Assembly (NCBI GenBank): GCA_018820275.1
Contig: JAHJOO010000038.1
Location: 62,001 to 126,000 of the forward strand
Direction of reading: 5' to 3'
DNA length: 64,000 nt
Source of the DNA: Alphaproteobacteria bacterium
GTDB lineage: Bacteria > Pseudomonadota > Alphaproteobacteria > Caulobacterales > Caulobacteraceae
The notes below the pieces were generated by a model. The model did no database searches. It saw nothing but the letters and a program-made list of their open reading frames with translations, and was not told the origin of the DNA. How positions within the stretch are numbered: the first letter of the stretch is position 1; each line of letters begins with the position of its first letter. The translations under genes and the position numbers were made by a program. Shown here piece by piece: positions 2,813 to 12,636 of this stretch.

Positions 2813-4342
2813 ATGGCCTACAAGTCCCTGCGCGACTTCATCGACATGCTGGAAGCCGAGGGCGAGCTGGTGCGCGTCCGCGAACCGGTCTCGACCCATC
2901 TGGAGATGACCGAGATCCAGACCCGGCTGCTGCGCAACGGCGGGCCGGCGGTGATCTTCGAAAAGCCGGTGATGCCGGACGGATCGATCAGCCCCATCCC
3001 CTGCCTGGCCAATCTGTTCGGCACGGTGAAGCGGGTGGCCATGGGGGTGACGCTGGAGAAGAAGCGCCGGACCACGCCCGAGGAGCTGCGCGAGGTCGGC
3101 GAGCTGCTGGCCTTCCTGCGCAATCCGACGCCGCCCCGGGGTCTGGGCGACGCCATGGAGATGCTGCCGCTGATTCAGACGGTCATGGCGATGCGGCCCA
3201 GGGTCGTGAAGTCCGCGCCGGTGCAGCAGGTGGTGTTGAAGGGCGAGCAGATCGACCTGACCCGCCTGCCGATCCAGGGCTGCTGGCCGGGTGAGCCGGC
3301 GCCGCTGATCACCTGGGGCCTGGTCGTCACCAAAGGGCCGGGCGAGGCGCGGGAGGACGACTTCAACCTGGGCATCTACCGGATGCAGGTGCTCGGCAAG
3401 GACCGGGCGATCATGCGCTGGCTGGCCCACCGCGGCGGGGCCCAGCACTACGCGCGGCACAAGAAGGCCGGGAAGCGCGAGCCCCTGCCCGCCGCCATCG
3501 TTCTGGGGGCCGATCCGGGCACCATTCTGGCGGCGGTGACGCCGGTGCCGGACACCCTGTCGGAGTACCAGTTCGCGGGCCTGATGCGCGGCGCCAAGGC
3601 CGAGCTGGTGCCCTGCAAGACCGTTCCGCTGATGGTGCCCGCCCAAGCCGAGATCGTGCTGGAGGGCCACGTCCTGCTCGACGAGCATGCGCCGGAGGGG
3701 CCGTACGGCGACCACACGGGCTACTACAACTCGGTCGAGACCTTCCCGGTGTTCCAGGTGACGGCGATCACCATGCGCCGCGACCCGATCTATCTGACCA
3801 CCTTCACCGGGCGTCCGCCGGACGAGCCGAGCGTGCTGGGCGAGGCGCTGAACGAGGTCTTCATCCCCCTGCTGCAGCAGCAGTTTCCCGAGATCGTCGA
3901 CTTCTGGCTGCCGCCCGAGGGGTGCAGCTACCGCATCGCCGTGGTGTCGATGAAGAAGGCCTATCCGGGCCACGCCAAGCGCGTGATGCTGGGCGTCTGG
4001 AGCTATCTGCGCCAGTTCATGTACACCAAATGGGTCATCGTCGTGGACCACGACATCGACGCCCGCGACTGGAAACAGGTGATGTGGGCCATGGCCACCA
4101 AGATGGACCCGGCCCGCGACATCACCCTGATCGAGAACACCCCGATCGATTATCTGGACTTCGCCAGCCCGGAGAGCGGTCTGGGGTCCAAGATCGGCCT
4201 GGACGCCACCGACAAGTGGGAGCCCGAGACGCACCGCGAATGGGGCCAGGAGATCCGCATGGACGACGCGGTCGTCGAGCGCGTCAACGAGATCTGGGAC
4301 CGGCTGGGGCTACCGGGTGAAGGAACGCCGATCTGGAAGTGA
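2813..4342 (+). CDS. ubiD: UbiD-family decarboxylase
   Basis: ATG at 2813 ([22 protein letters not shown]...); UbiD signatures such as [31 protein letters not shown] and [11 protein letters not shown]. Confidence 0.9.
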
Positions 4343-4383: not shown

Positions 4384-4662
4384 ATGGGCTCGGCCATCAG
4401 GAAAATCGGCAATTCCGCAGGCGTGATCCTGCCCAAGCCGGTGCTGGAGGCGCTGGGCGCCAAGCTGGGCGACGTGGTCGAGTTCGTGACCGAGGGGTCG
4501 GTCGTCAGGATTGCGACAGTGAAGCGCGACCCGCGCGATGGATGGGAAGAAGACTCCCGCAAGCTGGGCCGCCTGGGCGTTTCGGACGAAACCCGGGAGT
4601 GGCTGGAAGCGCCGCTCAATGCGGAAGCCGACGCCGAGTGGGCATGGGATGGCGAATGGTGA
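4384..4662 (+). CDS. AbrB/MazE-family antitoxin
   Basis: MGSAIRKIGNSAGVILPKPVLEALGAKLGDVVEFV: SpoVT/AbrB swapped-hairpin motif. Confidence 0.85.
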   Translation: MGSAIRKIGNSAGVILPKPVLEALGAKLGDVVEFVTEGSVVRIATVKRDPRDGWEEDSRKLGRLGVSDETREWLEAPLNAEADAEWAWDGEW

Positions 4663-4982
4663 GGCCCGCGCGCGGCGAGGTCTGGCTGACGCGGCTGGAT
4701 CCCACCGAGGGCAGCGAAATCCGCAAGACCCGTCCCTGCGTGATCGTGTCTCCCGAGCGCCTTAGCCATCACGACATCTACATGATCGCGCCGCTCAGCA
4801 GCGGCGACGCCAAGGCGCGATTTCGGGTCGAGACGGTGTTCCAGGGCCGGGCGGGACGCGTCCTGCCCGACCAGTTGCGCACGGTGTCGCGTGGACGTCT
4901 GCTCCAACGGCTTGGCGTTCTCGACGTCGGCGACTTCGACCAGGTGCTGGGCATACTGAGGCTGATGTTCGAGCCGGACTAG
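4656..4982 (+). CDS. MazF/PemK-family endoribonuclease toxin
   Basis: MVRPARGEVWLTRLDPTEGSEIRKTRPCVIVSPERL...LPDQLRTVSRGRLLQRLG; overlaps antitoxin stop (ATGGTGA). Confidence 0.9.
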   Translation: MVRPARGEVWLTRLDPTEGSEIRKTRPCVIVSPERLSHHDIYMIAPLSSGDAKARFRVETVFQGRAGRVLPDQLRTVSRGRLLQRLGVLDVGDFDQVLGILRLMFEPD

Positions 4983-5018: not shown

Positions 5019-6254
5019 TCAGGCCCTGGCGCCATATGTCAGCCGTCGCCAAAGCGCCTCCAGCGGCCCCTGGCCGAACAGACGCAGCCACACGGCAGAC
5101 AACACGATCTGGCCCGCGAACAGCGCGAGGCCAAGGCCGACGAACTGGAGCGGCGCCATATGTCCGATCCAGCCGAGGCCGATGCCGAAGAAGACGGCGG
5201 TGCCCAGAACCGACTGCATCACATAGTTGGTCAGCGCCATCCGGCCCGGCGCGGAGAAGACGCCCAGCACGGGCTTTGCTTTGGGCCAGGCCAGCAGGAA
5301 GCCGGCGCCGTAGGCGAGCGCCAGCGGAATGACGCCGAGCGCATAGCCCGCGTCCTGAAGGACGCCGTTGAGGTCGCTGCCGTCCATGGTGGCCATGCCG
5401 AAGACGTAGAGGGCGTTGCCGGGAATGCCGAAGACGAGGCCGAAGATCAGAACCGGTTTCAGCAGCTTGCGGTCGGTCAGCAGCGTGCCGGCCACCAGAC
5501 GGCGCCCGGCAATCAGGCCCAGCATCATCAGGGCCAGAACCTTGAACGGACGACCGCTCTCCAGCAGCGAGCCGAAGCGCCAGATCGCGCCCTGGAACTG
5601 GTAGAGGAAGAAGCTGGGCCAGCTTGGGTCACGTATGATGCCGATGAACTCGGGAAAGGCCGCGGGATCGACCATGCTGCGCGTGCCCGTGGCGTTCGCG
5701 AAGGCGGTCACGGCGGAATAGACGCCGAGGTCCAGCGGCACGCCCGAGGCGCGCAGCGCCGCCTTCAGCGGCACGACCAGCAGGATCAGGACCACCGCCG
5801 TGACCAGCAGACGCCGGTCGCTCCAGCCGCGCAGGAACACCAGCAGGAAGCCGAGCAGGGCGTACAGCGTCAGGATGTCGCCGAACCAGATGAAGACCAG
5901 ATGGATCAGGCCGAAGGCCAGAAGCACGGACAGGCGCCGCCGGAAGATCGCCACCCCCGGCGCGCCGCGCCCGTCGAGCCGCGCCAGCATGATGGCGAAA
6001 CTTGCCCCGAACAGCAGGGAGAACAGGCTGTAGAATTTGCCGTCGATCAAGCCGACGAAGGCGACCGCGGAGACGATGTCCTGAACCGGACCGGCGAGGG
6101 CCACCCGCTGGGGCGCGTCCATCAGGAACCAGCCCGAGAAGCTGGTGAACAGATTGGCGACGAAGACGCCCAGCAGGGCGAAGCCGCGCAGGGCGTCCAC
6201 CGCGGTGATCCGCTCCGCCGCCGCGCTCGGCACCGCCCTGTCGTCGTCGTGCAT
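5019..6254 (-). CDS. DUF418-family multi-TM protein
   Basis: ITAVDALRGFALLGVFVANL ... KFYSLFSLLFGASFAIML ... MALTNYVMQSVLGTAVFFGIGLG; start taken as internal ATG at 6254. Confidence 0.8.
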   Translation of the reverse strand: MHDDDRAVPSAAAERITAVDALRGFALLGVFVANLFTSFSGWFLMDAPQRVALAGPVQDIVSAVAFVGLIDGKFYSLFSLLFGASFAIMLARLDGRGAPGVAIFRRRLSVLLAFGLIHLVFIWFGDILTLYALLGFLLVFLRGWSDRRLLVTAVVLILLVVPLKAALRASGVPLDLGVYSAVTAFANATGTRSMVDPAAFPEFIGIIRDPSWPSFFLYQFQGAIWRFGSLLESGRPFKVLALMMLGLIAGRRLVAGTLLTDRKLLKPVLIFGLVFGIPGNALYVFGMATMDGSDLNGVLQDAGYALGVIPLALAYGAGFLLAWPKAKPVLGVFSAPGRMALTNYVMQSVLGTAVFFGIGLGWIGHMAPLQFVGLGLALFAGQIVLSAVWLRLFGQGPLEALWRRLTYGARA

Positions 6255-6382: not shown

Positions 6383-6430
6383 ATGAGCGCGTTCGACGTC
6401 CTGCTCGACCTTCGCGGCCCGCGGCCATGA
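6383..6430 (+). CDS. putative 15-aa leader peptide ORF (MSAFDVLLDLRGPRP)
   Basis: ATG 6383 to TGA 6428-6430; overlaps downstream ATG 6427 as ATGA; first 14 nt identical to the downstream gene. Confidence 0.35.
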   Translation: MSAFDVLLDLRGPRP

Positions 6431-6987
6431 GCGCGTTCGAGTTCTTCTTCGGCTTCTACGGCCTGATCCTGGGCCTGTCCGTGGTGGAGATCATCGGCGG
6501 GTTCGCGCGGGCGCTGCGGGCGCGCAAGCGCATCCGGCTCGGCTACTGCACGCCTTTGCTGGCGCTGTTCCTGCTGCTCGACCTCATCAGTTTCTGGACG
6601 GGCAGCTGGACGCGCTTTCAGAACGTCGAGATCAGCCCCGGCCTGCTCGTCACCGCCCTGGCGATCGCCGGGCTCTACTATCTGGCGGCCTCGCTGGTCT
6701 TTCCCGACTTCCAGGAGTGGGAGACGACCGACGACTTCTATGACGGCCACAAGGTGTGGGTGCTGCTGGGCAGCTTCGTCGCCAACCTGCTGGCCTTCAC
6801 CACCCTGCCGCTGGTGGCCGGGGATGCTGGCTTCGTGGTGGCCTTCTGGACCGACCCGAGCATGTGGATGTTCCTCGGGCCGCTCTTTGCGATGATGCTG
6901 GGCGTCGCCCTGATCCGCGACCGCCGGATCAACGTCGTCCTGCTCGCGCTCATCTGCCTGATGTACGCCGTGGACACCTTCATATGA
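6427..6987 (+). CDS. uncharacterised multi-TM protein, tandem paralogue 1
   Basis: MSAFEFFFGFYGLILGLSVVEIIGGFARALRARKRIRLGYCTPLLALFLLLDLISFWTGSW... Confidence 0.75.
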   Translation: MSAFEFFFGFYGLILGLSVVEIIGGFARALRARKRIRLGYCTPLLALFLLLDLISFWTGSWTRFQNVEISPGLLVTALAIAGLYYLAASLVFPDFQEWETTDDFYDGHKVWVLLGSFVANLLAFTTLPLVAGDAGFVVAFWTDPSMWMFLGPLFAMMLGVALIRDRRINVVLLALICLMYAVDTFI

Positions 6988-7607
6988 GCGCCTTCGAGTT
7001 CTTCTTCAGCTTCTACGGCCTGCTGCTCGGCCTGTCGGTGGCCGAGCTGGTGGGAGGGTTAGCCCGACTGCTGCACGAGCGGCATCGGGTGCGTTTCGTG
7101 TGGCTGACGCCTCTGCTGGCGCTGTTCGTGGCAGCGGATCTGGCGACGTTCTGGAACCAGGCGTGGCGATTCTTTCGCGGGGCGCCGTTCAATCCGGCCC
7201 TGCTGTTGATCGGCCTGGTCATCGCCGCGACCTTCTATGTGGCGGCCAGCATCACCTTCCCGCGCGTGACCGCCGAAGGGGTCGAGACCCGCGTTGATCT
7301 GGACGACCACTTCTGGACGCACCGGCGGGTGGTGTTCGGCTGCGTGCTGGCCGCCAACGCCATGGTGTGGGCGCTGTTGGGCCTGCTGGCGCTGGCGGAC
7401 CCGGTCTGGGCCGCCTTCTGGACGCCGCGGCTGCTGTTCGGGGTCGCCCTGTTCGCCGCCTGCACGGCGACGGCCGCCTTCGCGCCCTCGCGGCCGGTGG
7501 TCGTCGGTGCCCTGCTGATCGTGCTGGCCTACACCCTGTGGAACATGGTCCGGGCCGGCGCGATCCTGATCGCCGACGGGGTTTGGCTGCCGGCGACGGG
7601 GGGCTGA
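6984..7607 (+). CDS. uncharacterised multi-TM protein, tandem paralogue 2
   Basis: MSAFEFFFSFYGLLLGLSVAELVGGLARLLHERHRVRFVWLTPLLALFVAADLATFWNQAW...; ATGA overlap with previous stop. Confidence 0.75.
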   Translation: MSAFEFFFSFYGLLLGLSVAELVGGLARLLHERHRVRFVWLTPLLALFVAADLATFWNQAWRFFRGAPFNPALLLIGLVIAATFYVAASITFPRVTAEGVETRVDLDDHFWTHRRVVFGCVLAANAMVWALLGLLALADPVWAAFWTPRLLFGVALFAACTATAAFAPSRPVVVGALLIVLAYTLWNMVRAGAILIADGVWLPATGG

Positions 7608-7609
7608 GG

Positions 7610-8179
7610 GTGAGCGCGTTCGAGTTCTTCTTCGGCTTCTATGGCCTGATCCTGGGCCTGTCTGTGGTGGAGGTCATCACCGGCCTCGTCCGGGTGTTCA
7701 AGCGGCGCCAGCGTGTGCGCATCGGCTGGCTGACGCCGATGCTGGCGCTGTTCGTCCTGCTGGACATCTCCAGCTTCTGGATTGTGGCCTGGGGGGCCAT
7801 GCAGACGCTGGAGGTCAGATATGGCCTGCTGGTGATCGGCCTCGCCATCGCGGGACTTTACTCCGCCGCCGCCTCCTTGGTGACGCCGGACGATCTTGAG
7901 GCCTGGCCCGACTTCGACGCCTTCTATGACGCGCACAAGCGGTATGTGGCGGGCGGGCTGGCGATCACCAATCTGTTGGCGTTCGAAGTCGTGCCGTTGC
8001 TGACCACCGATCGGCTGACCGACGTGGTCGCGGCACGGCTCTCGCCCGACCAACTGGCTTGGACCGTCCCCTATTTCGGCCTGCTGCTCGCGATCGGTCT
8101 GGTGCGCGACCGGCGAGCAAATATGGCGTTCCTGGCCTTGCTGATCGGCTTCTACCTCCTGCAGACGTTCGGCCTCTGA
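7610..8179 (+). CDS. uncharacterised multi-TM protein, tandem paralogue 3 (GTG start)
   Basis: (V/M)SAFEFFFGFYGLILGLSVVEVITGLVRVFKRRQRVRIGWLTPMLALFVLLDISSFWIVAW... Confidence 0.75.
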   Translation: MSAFEFFFGFYGLILGLSVVEVITGLVRVFKRRQRVRIGWLTPMLALFVLLDISSFWIVAWGAMQTLEVRYGLLVIGLAIAGLYSAAASLVTPDDLEAWPDFDAFYDAHKRYVAGGLAITNLLAFEVVPLLTTDRLTDVVAARLSPDQLAWTVPYFGLLLAIGLVRDRRANMAFLALLIGFYLLQTFGL

Positions 8180-8227: not shown

Positions 8228-10060
8228 ATGCGAAACGCCCTCGTCCTCGCCGTCCTGGCCGCCCTGTCCTCGAGCCCCGCCATGTCCCAGACCCCGCCGC
8301 CCGCACCGAACATTGCGCCGTGGGATCAGGAATTCCTGCCGCCCGCGCCGGACTGGAACGGCACCAGCCGCAGCCTGATCCGGCGCACGACCGATCCCTG
8401 GGCGACCGACTTCGAGAAGGATCCGGAGCTGAATTTCAGCCCTGACTATGCCGCGACCCGCGCCTGGTTCGACCGGCTGGACGCCTCGTCCGAGCTGATC
8501 CGCATCGAGGAATTCGGGGTCTCGCCCGAGGGGCGTCCGATCTATGCGGTCATCGCGTCGAAGGACGGCGCGGCCTTCGATCCGGCCAAGCCGGTGCTGC
8601 TGATCCAGGCGGGCATTCACCCCGGCGAGATCGACGGCAAGGACGCCGGGATGATGCTGCTTAGGGACATCGCCCACTATCGCAAGGACCACCTGCTGGA
8701 CGGGGTCAACCTGATCCTGATCCCGATCCTGTCGGTGGACGGGCATGAACGGGCGTCGGAGTACAGCCGGCCGAACCAGCGGGGGCCGCGCGTCCAGGGC
8801 TGGCGCAACACGGCGACCAACCAGAACCTGAACCGCGACTACATGAAGCTGGACCAGGCCGAGATGCGCGCGGTGCGCGGCCTGATCGTGAAGTACCCGC
8901 CGGACCTGTACGTCGACGTGCACGTCACCGACGGCATGGACTACCAGTACGACGTGACCTTCGGATTCAACGGCGAGAACGGGGCGTTCACGCGGTCGCC
9001 GGCCAGCTCGACCTGGCTGGACGATGTGTTCAAGCCGGCGATGTACGGGGCGCTGGAAGACCGGGGGCACATCCCGGGCGAGCTGGTGTTCGGGGTCGGC
9101 GACGATCCGAAGGCGGGGCTGTCGGACGGCGGTCTGGGCGAGCGGTTCTCGAACGGCTGGGGCGCGGCGGCGCACGTGCCGACGATCCTGATCGAGAACC
9201 ACAGCCTGAAACCCTATGACCAGCGCGTGCTGGGCACCTACGTCTTCATCGAGGCGGCGCTGCGGATCCTGGCCGACGACGGCGGCGACCTGCGCGCGGC
9301 GATCCGGGCGGACGAGGCGCTGAGGCCGGCGGAGATCCCGGCCAATTTCGAGCCGGACCCGACGCCGCAGCGCACCGTGGCCTTCAAGGGCATCCGCTAC
9401 GAGACCTGGCGGTCGGAAGCCTCCGGGCGGGAGGAGATCCGCTGGCTGGGCGAGCCCGACCCGGAGCTGTGGCAGGTGCCCTTTTACGGGTCCCGGCCGA
9501 CGCTGACGCTGACGCGACCGGACGCCTACTGGGTGCCGGCGCACCGCGCCGACCTGATCGAGCGGCTGGCGATCCACGGCGTGCGCATGGAGCGGCTGGA
9601 CGCGCCGCGGACCGTGCCCGTCGACATGCTGCGGCTGGTGGATCCGACGGTGGCGACGCGGACCAATGAGGGGCACGTGGCCACTGCGGTGAAGACCGTC
9701 GAGGTCGAGCGCCGCGACTGGACCTTCCCCGCCGGCTCGGTGCGGGTGTCGACCGACCAGCCGCTGGGCGACGTGGTCGTGCTGCTGCTGGAGCCGCAGT
9801 CCAGCGAGAGCTTCTTCGCCTGGGGCCTGATCCCGGAGGTGCTGAACCGGGTCGAATACATCGAGGGCTATGCCATCGCGCCGCTGGCCGACCGGATGCT
9901 GGCGGCCGATCCGGCGCTGAAGGCCGAGTTCGAGGCCAGGCTGGCGGCGGACGCGGCGTTCGCGGCGAATGGCGACGCGCGTTTGCAGTGGTTCTACGAG
10001 CGAACCCCGTTCTATGATGACCGCTTCCGCCTGTATCCGATCGCCCGGGAGACACGATGA
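8228..10060 (+). CDS. M14-family metallocarboxypeptidase-like protein, secreted
   Basis: 610 aa with signal peptide; LLIQAGIHPGEIDGKDAGMMLLRDIA (HxxE) and NLNRDYMKLDQAEMRA. Confidence 0.85.
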   Translation: MRNALVLAVLAALSSSPAMSQTPPPAPNIAPWDQEFLPPAPDWNGTSRSLIRRTTDPWATDFEKDPELNFSPDYAATRAWFDRLDASSELIRIEEFGVSPEGRPIYAVIASKDGAAFDPAKPVLLIQAGIHPGEIDGKDAGMMLLRDIAHYRKDHLLDGVNLILIPILSVDGHERASEYSRPNQRGPRVQGWRNTATNQNLNRDYMKLDQAEMRAVRGLIVKYPPDLYVDVHVTDGMDYQYDVTFGFNGENGAFTRSPASSTWLDDVFKPAMYGALEDRGHIPGELVFGVGDDPKAGLSDGGLGERFSNGWGAAAHVPTILIENHSLKPYDQRVLGTYVFIEAALRILADDGGDLRAAIRADEALRPAEIPANFEPDPTPQRTVAFKGIRYETWRSEASGREEIRWLGEPDPELWQVPFYGSRPTLTLTRPDAYWVPAHRADLIERLAIHGVRMERLDAPRTVPVDMLRLVDPTVATRTNEGHVATAVKTVEVERRDWTFPAGSVRVSTDQPLGDVVVLLLEPQSSESFFAWGLIPEVLNRVEYIEGYAIAPLADRMLAADPALKAEFEARLAADAAFAANGDARLQWFYERTPFYDDRFRLYPIARETR

Positions 10061-10452
10061 GCGCCCTGCAAGCCGCCGGTCTGTGGACCGCGCTCCTGAT
10101 CCTTCTGCTGGTCGTCCTGTCGATCCGGGTCATGCTGCGACGCCGCGGGGCGCGCATCTCGCTGGGCGACGGCAAGGCCGGAGAGCTGGCGGCGGTGTCG
10201 CGAGGCTTCGGCAATGCGGCGGAGTACACGCCGCTGATGATCGGGGCGCTGATCCTGCTGGCCCAGCTGGGCGCGAGCCCGTTCGAGATCCACCTGCTGG
10301 GCGGCTCGTTCCTGGCCGGACGTGTCATCCATCCGCTGGGCCTCGACCCGAACCGGGCCCGACTCGCGCGGGTGATCGGCATGACCCTGACCTGGGTCCC
10401 GCTTGTGACCGCCGTCGCCATGCTGCTGATCGCGGTCTTCGCCCTGGGATGA
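10057..10452 (+). CDS. MAPEG-family membrane protein
   Basis: AAVSRGFGNAAEYTPLMIGALILLAQLGASP..LHLLGGSFLAGRVIHPLGL. Confidence 0.85.
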   Translation: MSALQAAGLWTALLILLLVVLSIRVMLRRRGARISLGDGKAGELAAVSRGFGNAAEYTPLMIGALILLAQLGASPFEIHLLGGSFLAGRVIHPLGLDPNRARLARVIGMTLTWVPLVTAVAMLLIAVFALG

Positions 10453-10489
10453 CGGTTGCGGGGTCCGGCCCCGACGGCCATATCGGGGC

Positions 10490-11833
10490 ATGTTCGACGC
10501 CGCCCCCGACGACCTTCTGCCCGACCTGATCACCGCCGCGCGCAAGGCCGGCGCCGACGCCGCGGAGGCGGTGCTGGCCCAGCGCGCCAGCCTGTCGGTC
10601 GGGGTCCGCAACGGCACCCTCGAGGAAGTGGAGCGGGAAGAGAGCCGCGACCTGTCCCTGCGGGTGTTCGTCGGCCGCCGGCAGGCGACGGTCAGCTCGT
10701 CCGACCTGTCGCCGGCGACGCGGGCGCGGCTGATCGAGCGCGTCGTGGCCATGGCCCGGCTGGCACCCGAAGACCCCTACGCCCGGCTGGCGGCGGCCGG
10801 CGAGCTGGCGCGCGGCGACCTGCCCGATCTGGACCTGTTTGATCCGTCCGAGCCGACCCCGGCCGAACTGGAGCGGGCGGCCGTGGAGGCCGAGGCCGCG
10901 GCGCTGGGCGTCGAGGGCGTGGCCAGGTCGGAGGGCGGGCACGCCTCGACCAGCTCCAGCCGCTGGCGGCTGGTGACCTCGGAAGGGTTCGACGGCGTGC
11001 ATCGCGGCAGCGTCTTCTCTCTGGGCGCCTCGGTCATCGCCGAGAAGGACGGAGCCATGGAGCGCGGCGGCGAGCACCGGGCCATGCGCTGGCTGGCCGA
11101 CCTGCCTTCGGCGCAAGAGATCGGGCGCGAGGGCGGACGCCGGGCGGCGCGGCGCGTGGGCGCGCGCAAGATCGCCTCGACCACCGCGCCGGTGATCTTC
11201 GAGAACCGGGTGGCGACCCAGGTGCTGTCACCCCTGGTCTCGGCCATGGCCGGGCCGTCGGTGGCGCGGGGCATGAGCTTCGTGAAGGACCGCCTGGGCA
11301 ACGCGGTGCTGCCCGCCGGCCGATCACTGATCGACGACCCCTTCCGCCCCCGCGGCCTCGGCTCCACGCCGTTCGACGACGAGGGCCTGCCGGTGGCCCG
11401 GCGGGCGCTGGTCGAGGACGGGGCGATCACGACCTGGCTGCTGAACCTGTCGGCGGCGGCGCAGCTGGGAATGGCCTCGACCGGCCATGCCTCGCGCGGC
11501 GGGGCCGGTCCCGCCGGCGTGTCAGGCCACAACCTGCACCTGACGCAGGGCGACCGCGATCTGGACGGGCTGATGGCCGACGCGGGCAAGGGCCTGCTGG
11601 TCGCCAGCATGTTCGGGCCGTCGCTGAACCCGGACACGGGCGACTGGTCGGCCGGGGTGTCGGGCTTCTGGTTCGAGAACGGCGTCATCGTCCACCCGGT
11701 CAACGAGGTGACCGTGGCAGGCAATCTGCTGGACCTCTATGCGCGTCTGGTGGCCGGGTCGGATCTGGAGTTCCGGGGGAGTTTCAACAGCCCCTCCCTG
11801 ATGTTCGACGCGGTGGCCATCGCGGGAAAATGA
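10490..11833 (+). CDS. pmbA: TldD/PmbA-family metalloprotease (PmbA/TldE type)
   Basis: 447 aa; VGVRNGTLEEVEREESRDLSLRVFVGRRQATVSSSDLS and NLHLTQGDRDLDGLMADAGKGLLVASMFGPSLNPDTGDWSAGVSGFWFENG. Confidence 0.9.
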   Translation: MFDAAPDDLLPDLITAARKAGADAAEAVLAQRASLSVGVRNGTLEEVEREESRDLSLRVFVGRRQATVSSSDLSPATRARLIERVVAMARLAPEDPYARLAAAGELARGDLPDLDLFDPSEPTPAELERAAVEAEAAALGVEGVARSEGGHASTSSSRWRLVTSEGFDGVHRGSVFSLGASVIAEKDGAMERGGEHRAMRWLADLPSAQEIGREGGRRAARRVGARKIASTTAPVIFENRVATQVLSPLVSAMAGPSVARGMSFVKDRLGNAVLPAGRSLIDDPFRPRGLGSTPFDDEGLPVARRALVEDGAITTWLLNLSAAAQLGMASTGHASRGGAGPAGVSGHNLHLTQGDRDLDGLMADAGKGLLVASMFGPSLNPDTGDWSAGVSGFWFENGVIVHPVNEVTVAGNLLDLYARLVAGSDLEFRGSFNSPSLMFDAVAIAGK

Positions 11834-12636
11834 CCGCGTCGCAGGCCGATCTCGACCTGATCGTCGCGGCCGCGCGCGAGGCCGGCGCCCTGGCGCTGAG
11901 CGAGCGGTCCAAGGGTCTGAAGATCCAGACCAAGGTCGGCGGCTCTCCCGTGACCCACGCCGACCTGGCGGTCGACGCCCTGCTGAAGGCGCGGCTGCTG
12001 GGCGCGCGCGCGGACCACGGCTGGCTGTCGGAGGAGACGCCCGACGGGCCGGAGCGACTGTCGAAGCGGCGCATCTTCGTGGTCGACCCGATCGACGGCA
12101 CGGTCGCCTACATGAAGGACCGGCCGTGGTGGTGCGTGCCGATCGCGATCGTCGAGGACGGCCGGCCGGTGGCGGCGGTGGTCCACGCGCCGATGCTGGA
12201 CGAGACCTTCACCGCCGTCGCGGGCGGCGGCACCTTCCTGAACGGACGTCCGATCACGGCGTCGGACACGGCCGACCTCGACGACGCGGCCGTGCTGGGC
12301 GACGCGCGGCTGTTCGCCGACGTCAGCCTGTGGCCCGAGCCCTGGCCGGCGATGCGGTGGGAGAAGCGCAACGCCCTCGCCTATCGCCTGTCGCTGGTGG
12401 CGGCGGGCGCGTTCGACGCCGCCATCGCCACGACGCCCAAATGGGACTGGGACGTCGCGGCCGGCGCCCTGATCGCGACGGAGGCCGGGGCGAAGGTATC
12501 CGACCACCACGGCCGCCCCTGGACCTTCAACCGCGCCGACCCGCGTCAGGCCGGTCTGGTGTGCGCCGCGCCCGCCCTTTGGCCGTTGATCGTGCGGCGC
12601 ACGCGGTCCATACCCCTGCCCGCCGACCTCCCCTGA
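11830..12636 (+). CDS. inositol monophosphatase-family / 3'(2'),5'-bisphosphate nucleotidase (CysQ-like)
   Basis: 268 aa; FVVDPIDGTVAYMK and WDWDVAAGALIATEAGAKVSD motifs. Confidence 0.85.
   Translation: MTASQADLDLIVAAAREAGALALSERSKGLKIQTKVGGSPVTHADLAVDALLKARLLGARADHGWLSEETPDGPERLSKRRIFVVDPIDGTVAYMKDRPWWCVPIAIVEDGRPVAAVVHAPMLDETFTAVAGGGTFLNGRPITASDTADLDDAAVLGDARLFADVSLWPEPWPAMRWEKRNALAYRLSLVAAGAFDAAIATTPKWDWDVAAGALIATEAGAKVSDHHGRPWTFNRADPRQAGLVCAAPALWPLIVRRTRSIPLPADLP

Follow-up and report, generated by a model that had tools for sequence, protein, structure and literature searches.

A variable array of diverged paralogues from an unnamed, predicted six-helix membrane protein family in the interval bounded by ubiD and a gene for an M14 carboxypeptidase

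In the window, that is, the whole stretch of 64,000 nucleotides from a Brevundimonas-like bacterium analyzed here, three homologous genes for small membrane proteins lie in a row between a ubiD gene and a gene for an M14 zinc carboxypeptidase (Table 1). All three are open, co-directional and located on the plus strand, with starts at 6427, 6984 and 7610 as given in a preliminary description of this DNA. Their products align over the whole length and share 53 invariant columns, with pairwise identities of 42% (copies 1 and 2), 52% (copies 1 and 3) and 39% (copies 2 and 3). The ATGA overlap previously noted between copies 1 and 2 was found at 6984-6987, and a gap of 2 nt lies between copies 2 and 3; co-translation of the tandem homologues is probable. 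A fourth intact paralogue of the same genome is located on another contig (G000:C54:3653-4237).

Table 1. Features of the array and its surroundings in the window.
Feature	Position	Strand	Remarks
UbiD-family decarboxylase	2813..4342	+	conserved; delimits the variable interval on the left
MazE/MazF-type toxin-antitoxin pair	4384..4982	+	inside the variable interval, between ubiD and the array
DUF418 membrane protein	5019..6254	-	divergent; inside the variable interval
Relic of a further copy	6383..6430	+	15 codons, MSAFDVLLDLRGPRP and stop; TGA overlaps ATG of copy 1
Copy 1	6427..6987	+	186 aa, six predicted TM helices; clade C, closest to B. aveniformis at about 53%
Copy 2	6984..7607	+	207 aa; clade A; orthologous to the gene that is normally present as a single copy in the ubiD-M14 interval; pLDDT of AlphaFold model 92.5
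Copy 3	7610..8179	+	189 aa, begins with GTG; clade C, closest to B. lenta at 62%; pLDDT of AlphaFold model 94.4
M14 zinc carboxypeptidase	8228..10060	+	610 aa; conserved; delimits the variable interval on the right
MAPEG	10057-10452	+	right of M14; in the remainder (10057..12636) of the conserved gene string
PmbA/TldD	10490-11833	+	in the remainder (10057..12636) of the conserved gene string
Inositol monophosphatase family	11830-12636	+	in the remainder (10057..12636) of the conserved gene string

Searches of Pfam, NCBIfam, PADLOC and PHROGs returned only sub-threshold matches for copies 1-3, which agrees with their earlier assignment to an uncharacterized family with several membrane-spanning segments. 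The weak Pfam matches to DUF2162, DUF2776 and ETR1_N remained under the curated cut-offs (16.6 vs. 34.4, 14.7 vs. 26.1 and 14.9 vs. 27 bits, respectively). No credible match was obtained in the PDB by sequence profile and none in a viral structure library. Since phage records contained no match to the family and plasmid records a single one (Pararhizobium), there is no sign that these genes are phage or plasmid cargo.

The family was found in 39 of 149 Caulobacteraceae genomes. A genome collection yielded 80 loci, which were chosen by a match to the conserved start, so that single, multiple and empty sites are sampled out of proportion. These loci are found mainly in Brevundimonas, and also in Asticcacaulis, Caulobacter, Sphingomonas/Blastomonas, Luteimonas, rhizobia and one Gemmatimonadetes bin. 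Fused two-domain versions did not occur among the loci surveyed. In the Luteimonas copy (L101:5001-5040), ATC replaces the usual ATG at the conserved start; this copy may be decayed or start later. Outside the Caulobacteraceae no conserved neighbours were found, and unrelated housekeeping genes flank the members.

A profile search (E down to 1e-20) also led to a wider superfamily, with members in further alphaproteobacteria and a small number of additional Pseudomonadota, that likewise has no Pfam or NCBIfam entry. Positions F4, G16, L17, G25, F56-W57, F92-P93 and F106 are common to the whole superfamily. Unlike the array family, the wider members are single copies with a different N-terminal motif and unrelated surroundings (ureC, eutB), from which we read some of the genomes as rhizobium-like. 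The urease and the eutB company are each limited to one lineage. At the rhizobium-like loci L175 and L131-L134, a distant member and a GST-like gene lie between ureC and a ureE-like gene with a His-rich tail, while at the Bradyrhizobium-like loci L172, L128 and L139 a distant member adjoins eutB, the gene for the large subunit of ethanolamine ammonia-lyase. One eutB-adjoining member (G613) is split over two reading frames.

To trace the ancestry of the three copies, a tree of 113 members was analyzed, in which clades A (62 members), B (26) and C (4) separate. Copy 2 falls among Brevundimonas single-copy genes and is 94% identical to the gene of its nearest relative, L064. The partner of copy 3 in the tree is a B. 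lenta gene (support 99/95) and that of copy 1 a B. aveniformis gene (support 100/82), the latter join being flagged by the program as one between long branches. Clade C, to which copies 1 and 3 belong, is patchy in distribution. The array had been described as a tandem triplication. This can no longer be maintained, because the copies lie in two old clades and the closest relative of each is found in another species. The nearest relatives, L064 and L076, carry copy 2 alone, and in a DNA comparison with them ubiD, copy 2 and the M14 gene are colinear, with copies 1 and 3 as extra material flanking copy 2 and the MazEF-type pair and the DUF418 gene as further extra material between ubiD and copy 1. 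We propose that copy 2 is the resident gene, to which copies 1 and 3 of a different clade were later joined.

The near-identity of copies 1 and 3 at their 5' ends, remarked on before, is real: within the first 22 codons, 18 of the 20 informative codons are identical, compared with 36 of 73 in the remainder. According to the codon comparison this is more than protein constraint explains, and just 1% of matched between-genome pairs reach the same level. The likely cause is local gene conversion or a shared recombination point. Concerted evolution of all array starts was rejected as an explanation, since codon identity within arrays is barely raised (0.67 vs. 0.62) and is striking only for copies 1 and 3. 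The relic at the head of the array contains an exact repeat of the first 14 nt of copy 1, whose start is overlapped by the ATGA at the end of the relic. Starts of the type ATGAGCGCSTTCGA occur four times in the window against 0.09 expected, which is far above chance. Copies may be gained and lost via recombination at the conserved 5' ends.

We then compared the contents of the ubiD-M14 interval. Among 59 loci with both borders visible, 41 hold a single member (36 of clade A, 5 of clade B) and 17 hold two to four members that differ in order and composition; in the remaining locus (B. viscosa) the sole copy is broken by a stop. In draft genomes, such in-frame stops may stem from sequencing errors. 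The member orders AB, BA, BAC, CAC and BBAB were seen, and clades A and B occur together in at least nine loci. Copy number among relatives ranges from one to seven. The largest array (L097:65-6309) comprises seven co-directional members, the last of which is truncated at 61 codons; it follows a gene for a 651-aa TPR-like protein that overlaps member 1 with its end, and a divergent eighth member is located 2 kb upstream. Copy remnants were detected at L047 and probably at L057 and L083. Empty sites exist as well: in six genomes ubiD and the M14 gene are 30-159 bp apart with no member between them. In a Caulobacteraceae sample, family members lie beside the M14 orthologue in 25 of the 50 genomes having that peptidase and are absent there in the other 25. 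MazEF, DUF418, DUF3829 and WYL genes are further passengers in this slot. Taken together, birth and death of copies shape the array, and a fixed three-subunit complex is not conserved.

A PemK/MazF-type gene like that of the window is present in the same interval at L043, L049, L050, L067, L072 and L095, the assignment having been checked by profile in L072 only. The DUF418 gene of the window (5019-6254) is missing from the interval in the nearest relatives.

These findings bear on the proposal in the preliminary description that the three homologues form a hetero-oligomeric membrane complex. In its obligate form, the copies would be dedicated subunits of one complex, co-translated for stoichiometry. 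Neighbouring copies in most arrays are indeed joined by an ATGA overlap or spaced by 1-3 nt, the copies have diverged and yet remain intact, and clades A and B co-occur repeatedly. Human TMEM175, in which two unlike six-TM repeats form one pore, provides a natural precedent. However, the predominance of single-member loci at the same site, the existence of both A alone and B alone, the lack of a fixed order, the lack of members next to the peptidase gene in 25 of 50 genomes and the truncated copies all argue against an obligate complex, and the CAC make-up of the window recurs in no other surveyed locus. We therefore regard this proposal as unlikely.

Alternatively, the array could be a selfish or decaying passenger of little function, whose copies pile up and rot in a permissive intergenic slot. 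The empty sites, the other passengers and the relics and in-frame stops in relatives would fit such a process. However, dN/dS values of 0.10-0.18 between copy 2 and its close relatives reveal clear purifying selection on this gene, and the cores of the intact copies 1 and 3 are conserved. The latter two are comparable with distant relatives only: between copy 3 and its B. lenta relative, pN is 0.24 and pS 0.52, and differences at the three codon positions amount to 0.30, 0.18 and 0.47, so that the third position dominates. This is consistent with copy 3 being a coding gene under constraint, saturation leaving the ratio rough. A mere passenger array is thus quite improbable. Decay in relatives, which the preliminary description had named as an argument against its own reading, is seen in part: truncated copies, relics and in-frame stops occur, whereas copy 2 is constrained and copies 1 and 3 are intact.

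AlphaFold models of copies 2 and 3 (pTM 0.87 and 0.89, respectively; pLDDT in Table 1) both consist of six long helices, which we take to be membrane-spanning. A Foldseek search with the copy 2 model matched the channel CmTMEM175 (PDB 5VRE) with a probability of 0.91, TM-scores of 0.58/0.63 and an E-value of 1.1, and the copy 3 model matched the same entry with a probability of 0.97, TM-scores of 0.67/0.67 and an E-value of 0.96; as the two models were built on one sequence set, the searches are not independent. 5VRE is the sole outstanding PDB match of both models, the others listed having TM-scores of at most 0.44. The earlier impression that no known function is apparent holds in that no named family was returned, and the structure search adds that both models single out this channel. 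Because the E-values are about 1, the match, which rests on TM-score and probability, is a lead and not proof of a TMEM175 fold.

Conservation is highest in helix 1 (2.69 bits), compared with 1.89 bits for helix 3 and 1.94, 1.13 and 1.38 bits for helices 4, 5 and 6. The acidic residue E5 at the start of helix 1 is present in 96% of the members, and W57 at the end of helix 2 is invariant. According to the positive-inside rule, the N-terminus is predicted to lie outside in 57 of 57 members. When true TMEM175 proteins were counted in the same way, both termini carried positive charges and loop 1 had few of them, which fits an N-inside orientation.

We tentatively favour, with somewhat less than even confidence, a TMEM175-like oligomeric pore to which each copy would be able to contribute alone as a homo-oligomer. 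The array would consist of accreted, diverged paralogues of one unnamed six-TM family in the variable ubiD-M14 slot. Each protein would adopt the fold of a bacterial TMEM175 subunit, helix 1 being its most conserved part, and by analogy helix 1 would lie at the centre of an ion-passing oligomer, probably of four subunits. Since most relatives carry one copy only, each protein should work as a homo-oligomer, and mixed oligomers where several copies coexist would be at most facultative.

The chief rival to the pore is that the same fold does a non-channel job, for instance as a membrane accessory in assembly, in the binding of lipids or small molecules, or as a modulator of neighbouring membrane or secreted enzymes. 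This is a serious possibility, although it too falls short of an even chance. It would be in keeping with the missing sequence homology to TMEM175, the opposite predicted orientation, the missing TMEM175 selectivity features and the company that Caulobacteraceae members keep with ubiD, M14, MAPEG and pmbA. A dedicated accessory of the M14 enzyme is at odds with the lack of a conserved partner beyond the Caulobacteraceae and with the many genomes in which the peptidase gene has no family member beside it. Gene neighbourhood does not discriminate between the pore and this rival.

On either account, the genes belong to a proteobacterial membrane-protein superfamily without an entry in the major family libraries. 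If the TMEM175-like fold is true, the range of a channel architecture hitherto described for a single family would be extended, the inverted orientation would bear on the origin of this fold, and the variable arrays would be a natural experiment on homo- versus hetero-oligomers. The most far-reaching version, in which an inverted-orientation TMEM175-fold channel superfamily without detectable sequence kinship lets bacteria build mixed oligomers from variable arrays of two to seven subunit genes, as a modular counterpart of the fused two-repeat human channel, is highly improbable.

Compared with the bacterial TMEM175 K+ channels (PF06736; CmTMEM175, MtTMEM175), the array proteins are similar in length (about 190-200 aa), in their six predicted TM helices and perhaps in fold, the models matching 5VRE with TM-scores of up to 0.67 at E-values of about 1. 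In TMEM175, helix 1 lines the pore and is most conserved, helices 4-6 are poorly conserved, and a Trp of helix 2 packs on the start of helix 1 (PMC7176437). The array family likewise has its most conserved helix in helix 1, poorly conserved helices 4-6, an acidic start of helix 1 and a Trp ending helix 2. However, the array proteins gave no Pfam match to PF06736, and hhalign against TMEM175 returned a probability of 0.3%, with scores no better than a reversed-profile control. Helix 1 does not begin with the R...FSD motif of TMEM175, the consensus at this point being MSAFEFFFSFYG. Helix 1 of TMEM175 channels also carries a conserved layer of threonines (Thr38 of MtTMEM175; PMC7176437), whereas mid-helix 1 of the array family is without a family-wide Thr and has small (S18, A20) and hydrophobic residues. 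Moreover, the N-terminus is inside, in the cytoplasm, in TMEM175 and predicted outside in the array family. A true TMEM175 gene is present elsewhere in the same genome (G000:C18).

SMR, Fluc and DUF606 proteins are paired small membrane proteins, the partners of which are often opposite in orientation. The array genes resemble such pairs as tightly spaced tandem paralogues for small multi-TM proteins, but differ from them in that a single orientation is predicted for all 57 members; dual-topology pairing was rejected on account of this common charge bias.
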